A stretch of 64,000 nucleotides of DNA from an uncultured Clostridia bacterium (GTDB taxonomy: Bacteria; Bacillota; Clostridia; Oscillospirales; Acutalibacteraceae): positions 1-64,000 of the forward strand of contig CAMHQC010000006.1 of assembly GCA_946187325.1 (NCBI GenBank), read 5' to 3'. The notes under the pieces were generated by a model. It did no database searches, was not told where the DNA came from, and saw only the letters and a program-made list of their open reading frames with translations. Each line of letters opens with the position of its first letter. Positions within the stretch are counted from its first letter, which is position 1. This document shows, one piece after another, positions 18,934 to 38,763 of the stretch. The position numbers and the translations under genes are program-made.

Positions 18934-19069
18934 GCCGGCTTTTGCCGGCCGGTAGAAAAGAACCTGCATAAAAAGTGAAAAAAGATTGTAATACGCGAAA
19001 GAGCGGGCTTTAAACCGCAAACGAGCGAACTGCTTTTTACCCTCGGCTTTAAGTCCTGCCTCCGCAACC
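18934..19069 (-). ncRNA. tRNA-associated structured unit, fMet locus, second (diverged) copy
   Basis: On the minus strand it opens with about 20 bases complementary to the tRNA-fMet 3' end (GGTTGCGGAGGCAGGACTT) and continues through a GGGTAAAAAGC core. It lacks the acceptor-like 3' end and finishes in a GCCGGC-AAAA-GCCGGC hairpin. It is a decayed member of the family described at 19117. Confidence 0.5.
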
Positions 19070-19116: not shown

Positions 19117-19294
19117 TGGTTGCGGAGACATAGTTCTATCTCCGGAAAATACCTGCCTCGCCTTTTACGGCTTGTTTAGGGGATAGTTTCATCTGCGCGG
19201 CGGTCTAAAAACGCTTACCCGAAGCGTTTTTACCTTCGATTTTCGCTGACGCTTAAATCTCGGTACGACCTGTTCAAGTCCTGCCTCCGCAACC
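19117..19294 (-). ncRNA. tRNA-associated structured unit, fMet locus, first copy
   Basis: 178 bases on the minus strand. The 5' arm (19294-19272) is complementary to 22 of the last 23 bases of tRNA-fMet before its final A. The core has the hairpin AAAACGCTT...AAGCGTTTTTAG and the conserved ACTATCCCCTAAACAAGCCGTA. The 3' end (CTCCGCAACCA) repeats the tRNA acceptor strand and CCA, and a terminator follows. Units of the same plan flank tRNA-Ser and tRNA-Arg. The family is not one I know, and its function is unknown. Confidence 0.7.
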
Positions 19295-19340: not shown

Positions 19341-19416
<76 letters not shown>

Positions 19417-29433: not shown

Positions 29434-29459
29434 CTATGAACACTCGCTTCGAATCTCTT
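29434..29459 (-). ncRNA. Fragment of a tRNA-associated unit (Ser type)
   Basis: Only the antisense 5' arm (TTCGAATCTCTTG on the plus strand) and a few flanking bases remain. The rest of 29405-29470 holds nothing else. Confidence 0.45.
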
Positions 29460-29472
29460 GCCTCAATCAAAA

Positions 29473-29510
29473 AAATAAGGAACCAACTCCAAAGAGCTAG
29501 TTCCTTATTT
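29473..29510 (-). terminator. Terminator of the truncated Ser-type unit
   Basis: AAATAAGGAAC...GTTCCTTATTT, nearly identical to 30543-30580. Confidence 0.7.
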
Positions 29511-29616
29511 GGCGGAGGACAAGAGTATATCATAAATGCGAGGACTTTGTTCTCGAACCTTACGGCTTGTTCAAAGCTAAAGTATCATAAACGCTCCTCG
29601 TTAAAAATGCTCCACA
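29510..29616 (-). ncRNA. tRNA-associated structured unit (Ser type), truncated in its hairpin
   Basis: It is nearly identical to the 3' two thirds of the unit at 30580-30723 (acceptor-like GTCCTCCGCCA end, AACAAGCCGTAAGG core, GCGTTTATGATA) and stops inside the hairpin where the cassette at 29617 begins. Confidence 0.65.
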
Positions 29617-29652
29617 GGACACACTCAATAAAGAATGTACCCTGTGTGATGT

Positions 29653-30240
29653 TTATACATTTCCCATTTTTACAGCTTGTAAAAAATCTTTAGCTTCATT
29701 ATTGGGATTTGCTTTTTTTGTTGCCTCAATATCATACCAAACATATTCTAATCCGTGAACAATAATAGGAATACTATTTCCAAATTTGTTCTTGATAAAT
29801 CCCTCAGATTGTAATCGGTTGGCAACTTCTGCTGCGATATTTACAAGTTCATAATGACCTACGGGACCCTTACCAACATATTCGTCATTTTCATCATACT
29901 CATCTTCTTCGGACTCATAACCGATATCGGTGATTCCGTTTTCATTATACCAATCAAAAAGCGCGTCAGTTATTCTGTTCGGTTCAAGCGGATCTATTAC
30001 AGATGTCTCATCTTGGCTCCAAAAGGCGTAATTCCAGCGTTCTTCGTCATATTTGCCCGCACCGTCACAAAAATCTTCGGTATTGTAACTTACAGCTAAA
30101 GAAGAAACGTTTTCGAATCCACTATATTGAAAATCCTCATTTGAATATACAAAAAACGATATAGCGTAAATTCCGTTATCATCCCAATCGGATACGATTT
30201 CTTTAATTCTATTATATATTATTTCTATTATATCTGTCAT
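29653..30240 (-). CDS. Unknown acidic cytoplasmic protein, immunity-like
   Basis: 195 residues from the ATG at 30240 (TTAGGTGAT site); the track start adds nine residues. Acidic, no signal or membrane helix. Landmarks are EIVSDWDDNGIYAISFFV near the start, a central KYDEERWNYAFWSQDE, and a C-terminal PIIVHGLEYVWYDIEATKKA. The overall look (small, acidic, Trp-rich) resembles immunity proteins of toxin systems, but no toxin gene is adjacent and no family is claimed. It lies alone within a 695-base segment flanked by inverted repeats and broken tRNA-associated units. Confidence 0.6.
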   Translation of the reverse strand: MTDIIEIIYNRIKEIVSDWDDNGIYAISFFVYSNEDFQYSGFENVSSLAVSYNTEDFCDGAGKYDEERWNYAFWSQDETSVIDPLEPNRITDALFDWYNENGITDIGYESEEDEYDENDEYVGKGPVGHYELVNIAAEVANRLQSEGFIKNKFGNSIPIIVHGLEYVWYDIEATKKANPNNEAKDFLQAVKMGNV

Positions 30241-30311
30241 GTTATCACCTAAAAACAAATATATCACTTTTTTAAGTTATTGTCAAAAAAACATCTTTAT
30301 GTAGTGTGTCC

Positions 30312-30352
30312 CACCGGACTGTTTTATTAACGCCCTTTCGAATCCCTTACTC
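30312..30352 (-). ncRNA. Fragment of a tRNA-associated unit (Arg type)
   Basis: On the minus strand AAGGGATTCGAAAGGGCGTTAATAAAACAGTCC, matching the 5' part of the Arg-locus units at 37563 and 37742, truncated at the cassette edge. Confidence 0.5.
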
Positions 30353-30353
30353 A

Positions 30354-30389
30354 GAAAACAAAAACGACCCGATGGGTCGTTTCTGTTTT
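30354..30389 (-). terminator. Terminator of the second Ser-locus unit
   Basis: AACGACCC-ATC-GGGTCGTT with flanking paired A/T tracts, then TTTGTTTT. Confidence 0.7.
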
Positions 30390-30530
30390 GGCTGAGCTGG
30401 CGTACTTTTTAAGTAATAAAGAATTATATCTCGAATCGTACGGCTTGTTAAAAGGATAGTGTGATAAACGCTCCTCCCTAAAAATGTCCCACTGGGACAT
30501 TTTCTTTACGGTCGGCTTCGAATCTCTTGT
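30389..30530 (-). ncRNA. tRNA-associated structured unit, Ser locus, second copy
   Basis: The 5' arm GACAAGAGATTCGAA is complementary to 15 bases of the tRNA-Ser(GCT) T-arm and acceptor strand. Hairpin AAATGTCCC...GGGACATTTTTA, then GCGTTTATCACACTATCC and AACAAGCCGTA. The 3' end (GCCAGCTCAGCCA) has diverged from the Ser acceptor. The hairpin differs from the first copy but stays paired. Confidence 0.7.
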
Positions 30531-30542
30531 CTCAATCAAAAA

Positions 30543-30580
30543 AAATAAGGAACCAACTCAAAAGAGCTAGTTCCTTATTT
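30543..30580 (-). terminator. Terminator of the first Ser-locus unit
   Basis: AAATAAGGAACTAGCTC...GAGTTGGTTCCTTATTT, then TTTTTT on the minus strand. Confidence 0.85.
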
Positions 30581-30723
30581 GGCGGAGGACAAGAATATAT
30601 CATAAATGCGAGGACTTTGTTCTCGAACCTTACGGCTTGTTCAAAGCTAAAGTATCATAAACGCTCCTCGTTAAAAATGCTCCACTGGAGCATTTTCTTA
30701 ACACTCGGCTTCGAATCTCTTGT
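30580..30723 (-). ncRNA. tRNA-associated structured unit, Ser locus, first copy
   Basis: 144 bases, best-preserved example. The 5' arm GACAAGAGATTCGAA complements tRNA-Ser(GCT) but not the neighbouring tRNA-Ser(TGA). Hairpin AAATGCTCC-AGT-GGAGCATTTTTA, core GCGTTTATGATACTTTAGC and TGAACAAGCCGTAAGG, and a 3' end TTGTCCTCCGCCA that repeats the tRNA acceptor strand with CCA. A strong terminator follows. It is probably transcribed as read-through from, or next to, the tRNA-Ser operon. Confidence 0.75.
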
Positions 30724-30740
30724 CATAAACCAAAATATAA

Positions 30741-30774: not shown

Positions 30775-30864
30775 TGGCGGAGGACAAGAGATTCGAACTC
30801 TCGCGCCGGTCACCCGACCTACTCCCTTAGCAGGGGAGCCTCTTCACCACTTGAGTAATCCTCC
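30775..30864 (-). tRNA. tRNA-Ser(GCT)
   Basis: 90 bases with CCA. Acceptor GGAGGAT/GTCCTCC, anticodon loop CTGCTAA (GCT), long variable arm, T-arm GAGTTCGAATCTC. Second in a two-tRNA transcript. Confidence 0.96.
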
Positions 30865-31084: not shown

Positions 31085-31123
31085 GCGCCAATAGCTCAGT
31101 AGGATAGAGCGTTCGCCTCCTAA
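31085..31123 (+). pseudogene. 5' half of a split tRNA-Arg(CCT)
   Basis: GCGCCAA acceptor strand, D-arm, TTCGC anticodon 5' strand and loop CTCCTAA, then unrelated sequence. The missing half lies at 37516-37559: GCGAA would pair with TTCGC (5 of 5) and TTGGCGC with GCGCCAA (7 of 7). Confidence 0.85.
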
Positions 31124-31197: not shown

Positions 31198-31274
31198 GCG
31201 TCAATAGCTCAGTTGGATAGAGCGCAAGCCTCCTAAGCCTGAGGTCGGGGGTTCGAGCCCCTCTTGGCGCGCCA
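31198..31274 (+). tRNA. tRNA-Arg(CCT), intact, inside the insert
   Basis: 77 bases with CCA. Acceptor GCGTCAA/TTGGCGC with one T-G wobble, anticodon loop CTCCTAA (CCT), one A-C mismatch in the anticodon stem, T-arm GGGGGTTCGAGCCCC. It differs from the split copy in the T-arm, so it is not a simple duplicate; it probably replaces the disrupted gene. Confidence 0.92.
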
Positions 31275-37515: not shown

Positions 37516-37559
37516 CTCCTAAGCGAAAGGCCGGGGTTCGAATCCCTTTTGGCGCGCCA
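37516..37559 (+). pseudogene. 3' half of the split tRNA-Arg(CCT)
   Basis: Loop CTCCTAA, anticodon 3' strand GCGAA, T-arm GGTTCGAATCC, acceptor TTGGCGC, G and CCA. It completes the half at 31085. The variable or T-arm seems one base short, so it may be decaying. The upstream side is a CCCGCAT...ATGCGGG hairpin, not tRNA. Confidence 0.85.
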
Positions 37560-37562
37560 AAA

Positions 37563-37705
37563 CAAAAGGGATTCGAAAGGGCGTAAATAAAACAGTCCTG
37601 TGGACTGTTTTTAGCCCGTAGCGTTTATGATATTTTAGCTTTGAACAAGCCACAAGGTTCGAGATTAATCGTTTTATATATATTAATTGTACTTTTGGCG
37701 CGCCA
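37563..37705 (+). ncRNA. tRNA-associated structured unit, Arg locus, first copy
   Basis: The 5' arm CAAAAGGGATTCGAA is a perfect 15-base complement of the split tRNA-Arg 3' half just upstream, but not of the intact tRNA-Arg. Hairpin AAACAGTCC-TGT-GGACTGTTTTTA, core GCGTTTATGATATTTTAGC and TGAACAAGCC, and a 3' end CTTTTGGCGCGCCA that repeats the acceptor strand with CCA. Confidence 0.72.
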
Positions 37706-37738
37706 AAACAAAAGAGCCTTAACGGCTCTTTTTGTTTT
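37705..37738 (+). terminator. Terminator of the first Arg-locus unit
   Basis: AAAACAAAAGAGCC, loop TTAAC, GGCTCTTTTTGTTTT. Confidence 0.8.
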
Positions 37739-37741
37739 GCT

Positions 37742-37880
37742 CAAAAGGGATTCGAAAGGGCGTAAATAATACAGTCCTGTGGACTGTTTTTAGCCCGTAG
37801 CGCTTATGAGTATTTCAGCAATGAACAAGCCGCAAGGTTCGAGATTAATCGTTTTATATATATTAATTGTACTTTTGGCG
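37742..37880 (+). ncRNA. tRNA-associated structured unit, Arg locus, second copy
   Basis: A 179-base tandem repeat of the first copy with the same 5' arm, hairpin and core (AACAAGCCGCAAGG). Its 3' end stops at CTTTTGGCG and runs into the patatin terminator, so the CCA end is lost. Confidence 0.68.
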
Positions 37881-37881
37881 A

Positions 37882-37917
37882 AAAAAAGCAGACAGTTTAA
37901 TAGCTGCCTGCTTTTTA
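37882..37917 (-). terminator. Terminator of the patatin-like gene
   Basis: AAAAAGCAGGCAG...CTGTCTGCTTTTT on the minus strand. Confidence 0.8.
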
Positions 37918-38763
37918 AGTATCTAAGAACTGTTTTAATTTGTTAAGATTCTTTTCGGCGACGCTCCTGCCGATATTATAAACCTTCCTTAAAACCTCCG
38001 CGTCGTGTTCAATACGACCGATAGGGAGCTTTTCTTCGGGGCAGATGATAAACGCGCTATTATTATTTTCCTGTTCAAAAACATATTCGCGTTGTTTATT
38101 GTACATTTCGTGGCGGTTTTCTATACATTTTATCATATTAGGGTACTTTCTGAGCGAGAATCTCATAAGCCCCATAGCCGAAGCCTTTTCCTTGGTAAAG
38201 TCCCTCGGTTGAGTGAGGATAACTACATTTTTCTCGAAGCCTTTATTTACCATAAACTCGAGCGGTATAGAGTCCGACATTCCGCCGTCGAGCATAGTCC
38301 GCCCGCCGACCTTTACGGGTTTAGATACCATCGGCATTGACGCCGAAGCCCTGAACCATTCGTATGTATCGTCCGTGACTTTATTGCAAAGCTGATAGAC
38401 AGGCTTGCCTGTGTAAACATCAGTACATACAACGTAAAATTCTATATTAGAATTATTATAAGTTTCTTTGTCGAATTTATCGAGCTTATCGGGGATAGTA
38501 TGGTAACAAAATTCCGCGCCGAAAATGTCGCCCGTTTTAATCAGCGAGCGCACACTGCAATAGCGTTTATCCTTACAGTATTTCGTATTATATCGGATAA
38601 CCCTGCCGATTTGCTTTGATTTAAAGTTACATCCGAAAGCCGCTCCCGCCGATACCCCGACGCAACCGTCAAAATCTATTCCGTTTTCCATAAGAACATC
38701 GCATACCCCCGCGGTAAACATTCCGCGCATAGCTCCGCCCTCAAGCACTAAACCTGTTCTCAC
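37915..38763 (-). CDS. Patatin-like phospholipase
   Basis: 282 residues. Patatin fold with oxyanion loop GLVLEGGAMRGMFTAG, nucleophile Ser in GVSAGAAFG, and catalytic Asp in MLDGGMSDS. It hydrolyses acyl groups of lipids. No signal or membrane helix, so it is cytoplasmic or peripheral, like the bacterial RssA/YjjU-type proteins. The start MRTGLVLEGG is typical. It stands next to the tRNA-Arg repeat units, and its terminator replaced the end of the last unit. Confidence 0.92.
   Translation of the reverse strand: MRTGLVLEGGAMRGMFTAGVCDVLMENGIDFDGCVGVSAGAAFGCNFKSKQIGRVIRYNTKYCKDKRYCSVRSLIKTGDIFGAEFCYHTIPDKLDKFDKETYNNSNIEFYVVCTDVYTGKPVYQLCNKVTDDTYEWFRASASMPMVSKPVKVGGRTMLDGGMSDSIPLEFMVNKGFEKNVVILTQPRDFTKEKASAMGLMRFSLRKYPNMIKCIENRHEMYNKQREYVFEQENNNSAFIICPEEKLPIGRIEHDAEVLRKVYNIGRSVAEKNLNKLKQFLDT

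Follow-up and report, generated by a model that had tools for sequence, protein, structure and literature searches.

A family of short repeat units was found close behind tRNA genes of an uncultured Clostridia bacterium, and each unit combines a conserved core with a variable arm that mirrors the tRNA ahead of it. In the stretch of DNA analysed (64,000 nucleotides, referred to here as the window), such units form arrays headed by tRNA-Arg, tRNA-Ser(GCT) and tRNA-fMet (Table 1), and across the genomes sampled they were found behind 22 types of tRNA and also behind tmRNA. On balance, the units are probably short, non-coding, non-autonomous mobile repeats aimed at the 3′ ends of tRNA and tmRNA genes, with an arm that would stem from a fold-back copy of the target or be kept as part of a DNA hairpin. 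A constant core joined to an arm that varies with its target, across many genera and all 22 tRNA types, outwardly resembles either a guide or target copying.

Structure of the units

Read in the sense of the tRNA, the order is the tRNA with its CCA end, an intrinsic terminator, the arm (reverse complement of tRNA nt 54–68), the core, an AT-rich end, a tail and a terminator. In the core, the covarying hairpin AAAA(C)NNNNCC-nGn-GGNNNN(G)TTTTT is accompanied by another conserved stretch, with GTAG after the hairpin in some units. The AT-rich end often reads ..GAACATA and is followed by a direct copy of tRNA nt 63–76 and a terminator, beyond which the array may continue with another unit. Units are about 130–200 bp long, and arrays of up to four units were found.

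The distance from the CCA to the block of the arm that corresponds to nt 54–62 had a median of 54 nt (middle half 49–59; 134 arrays). This block is perfectly paired in 75 of 83 first units, and the nt 63–68 block in 38 of 83. Arm decay in the later units of arrays was not clearly different (28/34 perfect at nt 54–62). A tail copy of the tRNA 3′ end was found in 61 of 91 units and starts at nt 63 in 44 of these 61. The arm runs on into nt 69–76 in 9 of 134 cases, compared with 0.9 on permutation, and most of the nine are related Gly and Pro loci.

Table 1. Features of the Arg, Ser and fMet arrays (positions are those of the window)
Feature	Position	Strand	Remark
tRNA-Arg(CCT) 3′ half, native, split in the anticodon loop	37516..37559	+	T-arm and acceptor strand mirrored by the arm
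Arg unit 1 arm, reverse complement of tRNA nt 54–68	37563..37577	+	15/15
Arg unit 1 core: covarying AAAACAGTCC-TGT-GGACTGTTTTT hairpin and conserved 3′ part	37578..37691	+	
Direct copy of tRNA-Arg nt 63–76, end of Arg unit 1	37692..37705	+	
Terminator separating the Arg units: GAGCCTTAACGGCTC, then T-run	37706..37741	+	by eye
Arg unit 2 arm	37742..37756	+	15/15
Arg unit 2 core	37757..37871	+	
Truncated tail copy (CTTTTGGCG) and unrelated distal terminator, Arg array	37872..37920	+	by eye
tRNA-Ser(GCT), head of second array	30775..30864	-	
Ser unit 1 arm	30710..30724	-	15/15 to Ser-GCT
Ser unit 1 core and copy of tRNA-Ser nt 62–76 (30594–30580)	30580..30709	-	
Ser unit 2 arm	30517..30531	-	
Foreign tail in Ser array: copy of tRNA-Gln(TTG) nt 63–76	30389..30402	-	
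Gln-type arm GTAAGGGATTCGAA, third unit of Ser array	30337..30350	-	
195-aa ORF within third unit of Ser array	29653..30240	-	no Pfam match
Third unit remainder: Ser tail, terminator, then last Ser-like arm	29448..29620	-	
tRNA-fMet, head of third array	19341..19416	-	
fMet arm, reaching nt 53–75	19272..19294	-	22/23 bases
fMet 3′-end copy closing fMet unit 1	19117..19129	-	by eye
Second fMet arm, decayed	19050..19069	-	by eye

The arrays of the window

The Arg arm, CAAAAGGGATTCGAA, is present in both Arg units. It had been predicted to be specific for the split tRNA-Arg 3′ half that precedes it, and was found to match this half at 15 of 15 bases compared with 12 of 15 for the other tRNA-Arg (31198); an exact 15-mer is expected by chance within 120 nt at a frequency of ~1e-7. 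In Arg unit 1 the spacer between CCA and arm is only 3 bases, and the terminator is absent there.

The native tRNA-Arg(CCT) is split in its anticodon loop into halves (31085–31123 and 37516–37559) that overlap by 7 nt, CTCCTAA. The 6.4-kb insert that splits it brings its own intact tRNA-Arg(CCT) (31198–31274) and has TTGCTAATAA repeats close to both of its inner ends; no tyrosine integrase was found inside it. The Arg units retain a perfect arm despite this split.

In the Ser array, the arm of units 1 and 2 (GACAAGAGATTCGAA) matches tRNA-Ser(GCT) at 15 of 15 bases and tRNA-Ser(TGA) at 11 of 15, as originally predicted. However, not all units of this array are of Ser type, as one boundary consists of a tRNA-Gln tail (perfect at 14/14 in comparison with Gln-TTG), a terminator and a Gln-like arm. 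For the fMet unit, the proposed match of the arm to tRNA-fMet at 22 of 23 bases was confirmed.

Specificity of the arm for the adjacent tRNA

The T-loop part of the arm is common to most tRNAs, and specificity is therefore the proper test of the original prediction that the variable arm tracks its host tRNA. When arms were compared with random tRNAs across genomes, the own tRNA scored higher and the prediction stood. For 95 units from the genus of the window that have an adjacent tRNA, the mean score against the own tRNA was 13.25, compared with 6.78 on permutation (sd 0.26; 2000 permutations). The own tRNA was unbeaten in 76 of the 95 and strictly best in 49 (69 distinct tails), with a pool that includes tRNAs of the same type from other genomes. 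The genus-level tests, including the position-wise one below, covered matches with a sense tRNA within 1200 nt after removal of duplicate loci, setting aside 46 of 135 that lacked one, for example at contig ends, at tmRNA or behind lone 3′ halves. An independent set of 38 arrays at the order and class levels, from which 16 of 54 arrays lacking a detected tRNA had been left out, scored 13.37 against the own tRNA, compared with 9.03; here the own tRNA went unbeaten for 28 of the arrays and was strictly best for 12. In many loci of this set the arm spans the 5′ T-stem strand too.

Position-wise matching was examined in 117 of 124 de-duplicated units from the genus. The other seven were dropped because their arms aligned poorly; in some of these the arm lies further upstream. 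The match was 0.98 at the variable tRNA position 59 (0.40 permuted), 0.88 at position 64 (0.35 permuted) and 0.66 at position 68 (0.28 permuted), and fell to 0.34 (0.27 permuted) at position 69. Matching extends over positions 57 and 59, which are the variable bases of the T-loop, over the strand of the T-stem and over nt 66–68, with a sharp limit at 68/69. Since the search model contains a TTCGAA arm, conservation of this anchor is partly by construction, whereas that of the host-specific positions is not. By eye, species variants of one tRNA (Gly and Thr-CGT) are mirrored by the arms, and behind a tRNA-Tyr with C55 (L251) the arm has the matching change.

A tree of the cores (71 rows, 95 columns; weakly resolved) required 40 changes of tRNA type for 16 types, compared with 48.1 after shuffling, and 32 changes of genome compared with 37.2. 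Cores have therefore often switched tRNA, with arms that match the present host. As tRNA type nevertheless clusters on the tree, part of the match between arm and tRNA may be due to plain descent. The idea that each tRNA has its own lineage of units was weakened by core similarity, which is 0.739 for different tRNAs within a genome (74 pairs) and lower, at 0.708, when a given tRNA is compared across genomes (264 pairs), although the clustering by tRNA type persists.

Distribution

Within the genus, a DNA search of 100 genomes identified units in 86. Covariance model R1 found them in 19 of 150 genomes of the family. With model R2 they were detected at the order level in 87 of 394 genomes, representing 50 of 168 genera, and at the class level in 65 of 391 genomes, representing 46 of 223 sampled genera. 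The named records carrying units were MAGs of Ruminococcus, Oscillospiraceae, Faecousia and Clostridia, and Anaeromassilibacillus sp. An172. A script-based sorting of 198 arrays placed 134 behind a tRNA in sense orientation, 8 behind tmRNA and 24 at contig edges. Neither a tRNA nor a tmRNA was found for a further 30, several of which follow a lone tRNA 3′ half (by eye), and of the last two, one has only a 3′-end-like match and one only an antisense tRNA nearby.

In the genome to which the window belongs (1.95 Mb in 45 contigs, with 32 tRNAs detected using RF00005), units or arm remnants were found behind about half of the tRNAs when 260 nt downstream were read in the fetched stretches. These tRNAs include Met, fMet, Ser-GCT, Ser-CGA, Ser-GGA, Gly-TCC, Pro-TGG, Gln-TTG, Arg-CCG, Thr-GGT and Leu-TAA, together with Leu-TAG, where the unit is decayed. 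Intact arms mirror their own tRNA, those of Gln-TTG, Arg-CCG and Pro-TGG only from nt 54 to ~63. Many fetched contigs end at or near units, and the units may explain the frequent breaks of draft genomes at tRNA genes in this group of Clostridia.

The units had no match in Rfam, either at gathering scores for the window or at E values up to 1 for 12 loci. The matches obtained were to tRNA, tmRNA, a neighbouring Gut-1 RNA and pemK, plus weak sub-threshold ones read as chance; the tmRNA of locus L190 was confirmed in this way. No description of such units was found in searches of the open PMC literature.

Junctions and hybrid arrays

Orthologous tRNA-Ser(GGA) genes in the genus were found both empty, with a plain terminator and no arm (e.g. 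L209, L223 and L224), and occupied by a unit (e.g. L207, L208, L212 and L226). At seven loci (L034, L040, L103, L117, L181, L183 and L187), a single unit is flanked by a duplicated block that starts at tRNA nt 63 and stops where the terminator T-run ends, the distal copy being without an arm; the junctions and the limits of the duplication were read by eye. In 70 arrays with a distal tail, the distal terminator was similar to the proximal one beyond background in 29 and not in 41. The duplicated blocks fit target duplication, whereas unrelated distal terminators fit a cassette with its own tail and terminator and would not be predicted by simple target duplication unless these cases are old. 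Both processes could hold, at different ages.

Some arrays are hybrid: in the window the Ser array includes a Gln unit, and a Pro unit was found among the units of a Val array. In these, the blocks have moved with their own tail, terminator or arm. The hybrid units retain the arm of their former tRNA, and the arm is therefore not rewritten at once. The original suggestion that arms arose from insertion at tRNA 3′ ends is supported in outline by the far-end copy of nt 63–76, the empty and occupied tRNA-Ser orthologs and the hybrid arrays.

We infer that the units are mobile, and the preferred reading is that a unit would join the chromosome on the left at the end of the T-run of the tRNA terminator and on the right at tRNA nt 62|63. 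This choice of junctions would leave the tRNA intact and place a copy of nt 63–76, often with the terminator, on the far side. The arm would then be an inverted copy that spans the T-loop, the T-stem and the first bases of the acceptor strand and not a regulatory antisense sequence, most likely made by a strand folding back at the terminator hairpin and copying itself, with the near-universal TTCGAA as anchor. It could be kept because a long DNA hairpin of tRNA nt 54–68, terminator and arm is recognised by a recombinase, or it could be mended by template switching.

Direct repeats of a tRNA 3′ end, which are present here, are also the usual trace of integrase-driven insertion of islands or prophages, and the units might be scars of such events, each a leftover attP or attR arm. 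This origin is highly improbable, as a single short family occurs at 22 tRNA types with the repeat start fixed at nt 63, integrases and phage or plasmid carriers are missing, and the inverted arm would be left unexplained. A phage or plasmid origin likewise found no support, as the units were absent from the viral contigs, phage records and plasmid records searched.

Pairing at the DNA or RNA level

The tolerance of the arm for wobble pairs was assessed from its mismatches, and a preference for G.U was absent, with 17 of wobble type (14 G-T and 3 T-G) compared with 27 of A.C type (18 A-C and 9 C-A). Structured RNAs under selection are thought to change via G.U pairs. Among 152 copies of the core hairpin, which fall into ~40 stem/loop types, G.U-type cells numbered 3 and C.A cells 5. 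Covariation was almost purely Watson–Crick, a pattern to be expected from mending of the hairpins as DNA. Template switching is described in PMC8794818 as a process that mends inverted copies of DNA in this way. The pairing pattern of the units is more like that of such mended inverted copies than that of a selected RNA structure.

It had been proposed that a transcript could fold the tRNA T-arm and acceptor strand into a rival helix with the arm, resembling antisense control or a primer-binding site. Pairing in a read-through transcript would then control tRNA maturation, and on paper the Arg half and its arm form a stable helix (-21.6 kcal/mol), the units lie in sense at a short distance behind the tRNA and the core hairpin ends in a T-run. 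However, in most cases a terminator stands between tRNA and arm, the presence of a unit differs among orthologs, and about half of the tRNAs in the genome of the window have no unit. The arm is also retained at the split tRNA-Arg, which being split cannot mature, and behind lone tRNA 3′ halves (by eye). Together with the lack of a wobble preference and the Watson–Crick covariation of the core, the split tRNA argues against antisense control, and regulation at the RNA level is very unlikely. The likeness to a primer-binding site was also not supported. A primer-binding site of retroviral type reaches the acceptor end and CCA, whereas most arms end at nt 68 and contain no complement of the CCA, and this candidate was rejected.

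Cargo and inserts

A scan of 141 arrays outside the window identified 6 gaps longer than 330 nt, three of which have a convincing ORF. Cargo was found in L096 (a weak YpsA-type protein, and an HTH-like ORF by eye), L111 (a barstar and one ORF) and L160 (an HTH protein with a likely membrane part), and by eye in L288 (a GNAT-like gene) and L248 (a Fic-like gene).

In the window, the 195-aa ORF of the Ser array lies inside a core hairpin in a segment (29612–30310, minus strand) flanked by inverted repeats of ~20 nt (GGACACACT..AATAAAGA). By eye, this ORF seems to be carried by a further small element with inverted-repeat ends that was inserted in the hairpin, and may therefore not belong to the unit. 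A second copy of the end of this insert is present in L011. The core hairpin is interrupted by another insert in some units (L012, GTTCATAGGCAATTAAAGTGTTAATTGCC, and L111; by eye), so inserts seem to land in the hairpin loop.

Search for the moving enzyme

No transposase or integrase was found to be tied to the units. With loci fetched for their integrases set aside, a phmmer search using integrases from the genome of the window revealed a single integrase-like ORF (L092) in the surroundings of all the units taken together. The integron integrase model TIGR02249 gave no match over its cut-off in the 100 genomes of the genus, and only Xer-like matches were seen below it. A broken Xer-like recombinase gene is present in the genome of the window (contig C4; L142, coordinates 1492–2034). 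Intact relatives occur in ~10 of the 100 genomes, where the mean number of units is 6.1 compared with 3.3, which is not a significant association (p = 0.14). The Y1 transposase family PF01797 was detected in 50 of the 100 genomes, with two matches in that of the window, and strong matches were not associated with unit counts (p = 0.82). Thus, the integron integrase, the Xer-like recombinase and the Y1 transposase are each without support as the mover in genomes of the genus.

Relationship to known systems

The units resemble integron attC sites and cassettes in being imperfect palindromes defined by pairing, kept through pairing while the sequence varies, with a crossover beside a paired outer box, tandem arrays and occasional single-gene cargo; they differ in being anchored on tRNA genes, in the tRNA-mirroring arm and in mostly having no cargo. 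An integron-like cassette system anchored on tRNA genes might accordingly be envisaged, in which the folded strand acts like attC, with tRNA nt 54–62 as the R box, then the crossover, nt 63–68 as spacer, the terminator hairpin and the arm. The cassette would begin at nt 63, take in the terminator, arm and core and stop at the unit end, and it could carry genes, and the arm would match because a cassette in first place must rebuild the tRNA 3′ end. The position of junction 62|63 at the border between the well-paired and the less paired block is consistent with such a system, as are the tandem arrays, the shift of a foreign tail, terminator and arm as a single block, the single genes carried by a few arrays and the often unrelated distal terminators. 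We nonetheless regard it as unlikely, because most arrays have no cargo, the pairing R box is missing at inner junctions and no integron integrase scored over the cut-off in the 100 genomes of the genus. The attC crossover box motif, GTTRRRY/RYYYAAC, is also absent by eye, the tRNA at the junction reading TTCRANTC|C and the units having ends such as ..CATA or ..ACGT.

A broader and more speculative possibility, which we hold to be rather unlikely, is a structure-guided cassette system that is independent of integrons and widespread in Clostridia. It would dock at the T-arm of tRNA genes, rewrite or select the host-mirroring arm, gather small immunity and regulator genes and be moved in trans by a putative recombinase or reverse transcriptase acting on folded strands.

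The preferred reading, of small mobile repeats, has parallels in other families. REP/BIME sequences are likewise short, palindromic, non-coding, present in many copies and chromosome-bound, and according to PMC8266576 they are possibly moved in trans as folded single strands by TnpA-REP (RAYT); for the units, no association with Y1 transposases was found in the genus. Enterobacterial RU-type and other small MITE-like repeats are also small, non-autonomous and intergenic and sometimes contain ORFs, but the ends of the present units depend on the target tRNA. To our knowledge, REP sites neither track one class of genes nor carry an arm complementary to their target. Integrative elements that use tyrosine integrases to target tRNA genes regenerate the tRNA and duplicate its 3′ end as a direct repeat, as here, whereas the units are only ~130–200 bp long, have no integrase, occupy many tRNA types and possess the inverted arm. 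Template-switch (quasipalindrome) mutation, as covered in PMC8794818, makes and mends perfect inverted copies with Watson–Crick covariation and no wobble intermediates; it is a process and not an element, and would account for the arm while leaving the spread of the core unexplained.

If arms form on insertion, this would represent a new route by which a mobile element gains homology to its target. If the arm is instead part of a fold used in recombination, Clostridia would have a second integron-like system, with tRNA genes as its docking sites. The units make the attraction of mobile DNA to tRNA 3′ ends directly testable.

Neighbouring RNA families

A Gut-1 RNA (RF01706) is located directly behind the tmRNA unit in L190 (coordinates 1335–1411), and look-alikes were seen by eye in L173 and L195. 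Gut-1 is a separate neighbour of the unit in L190, and may itself be a mobile repeat. The window also contains a match to the pemK RNA family (RF02913; coordinates 2664–2758).
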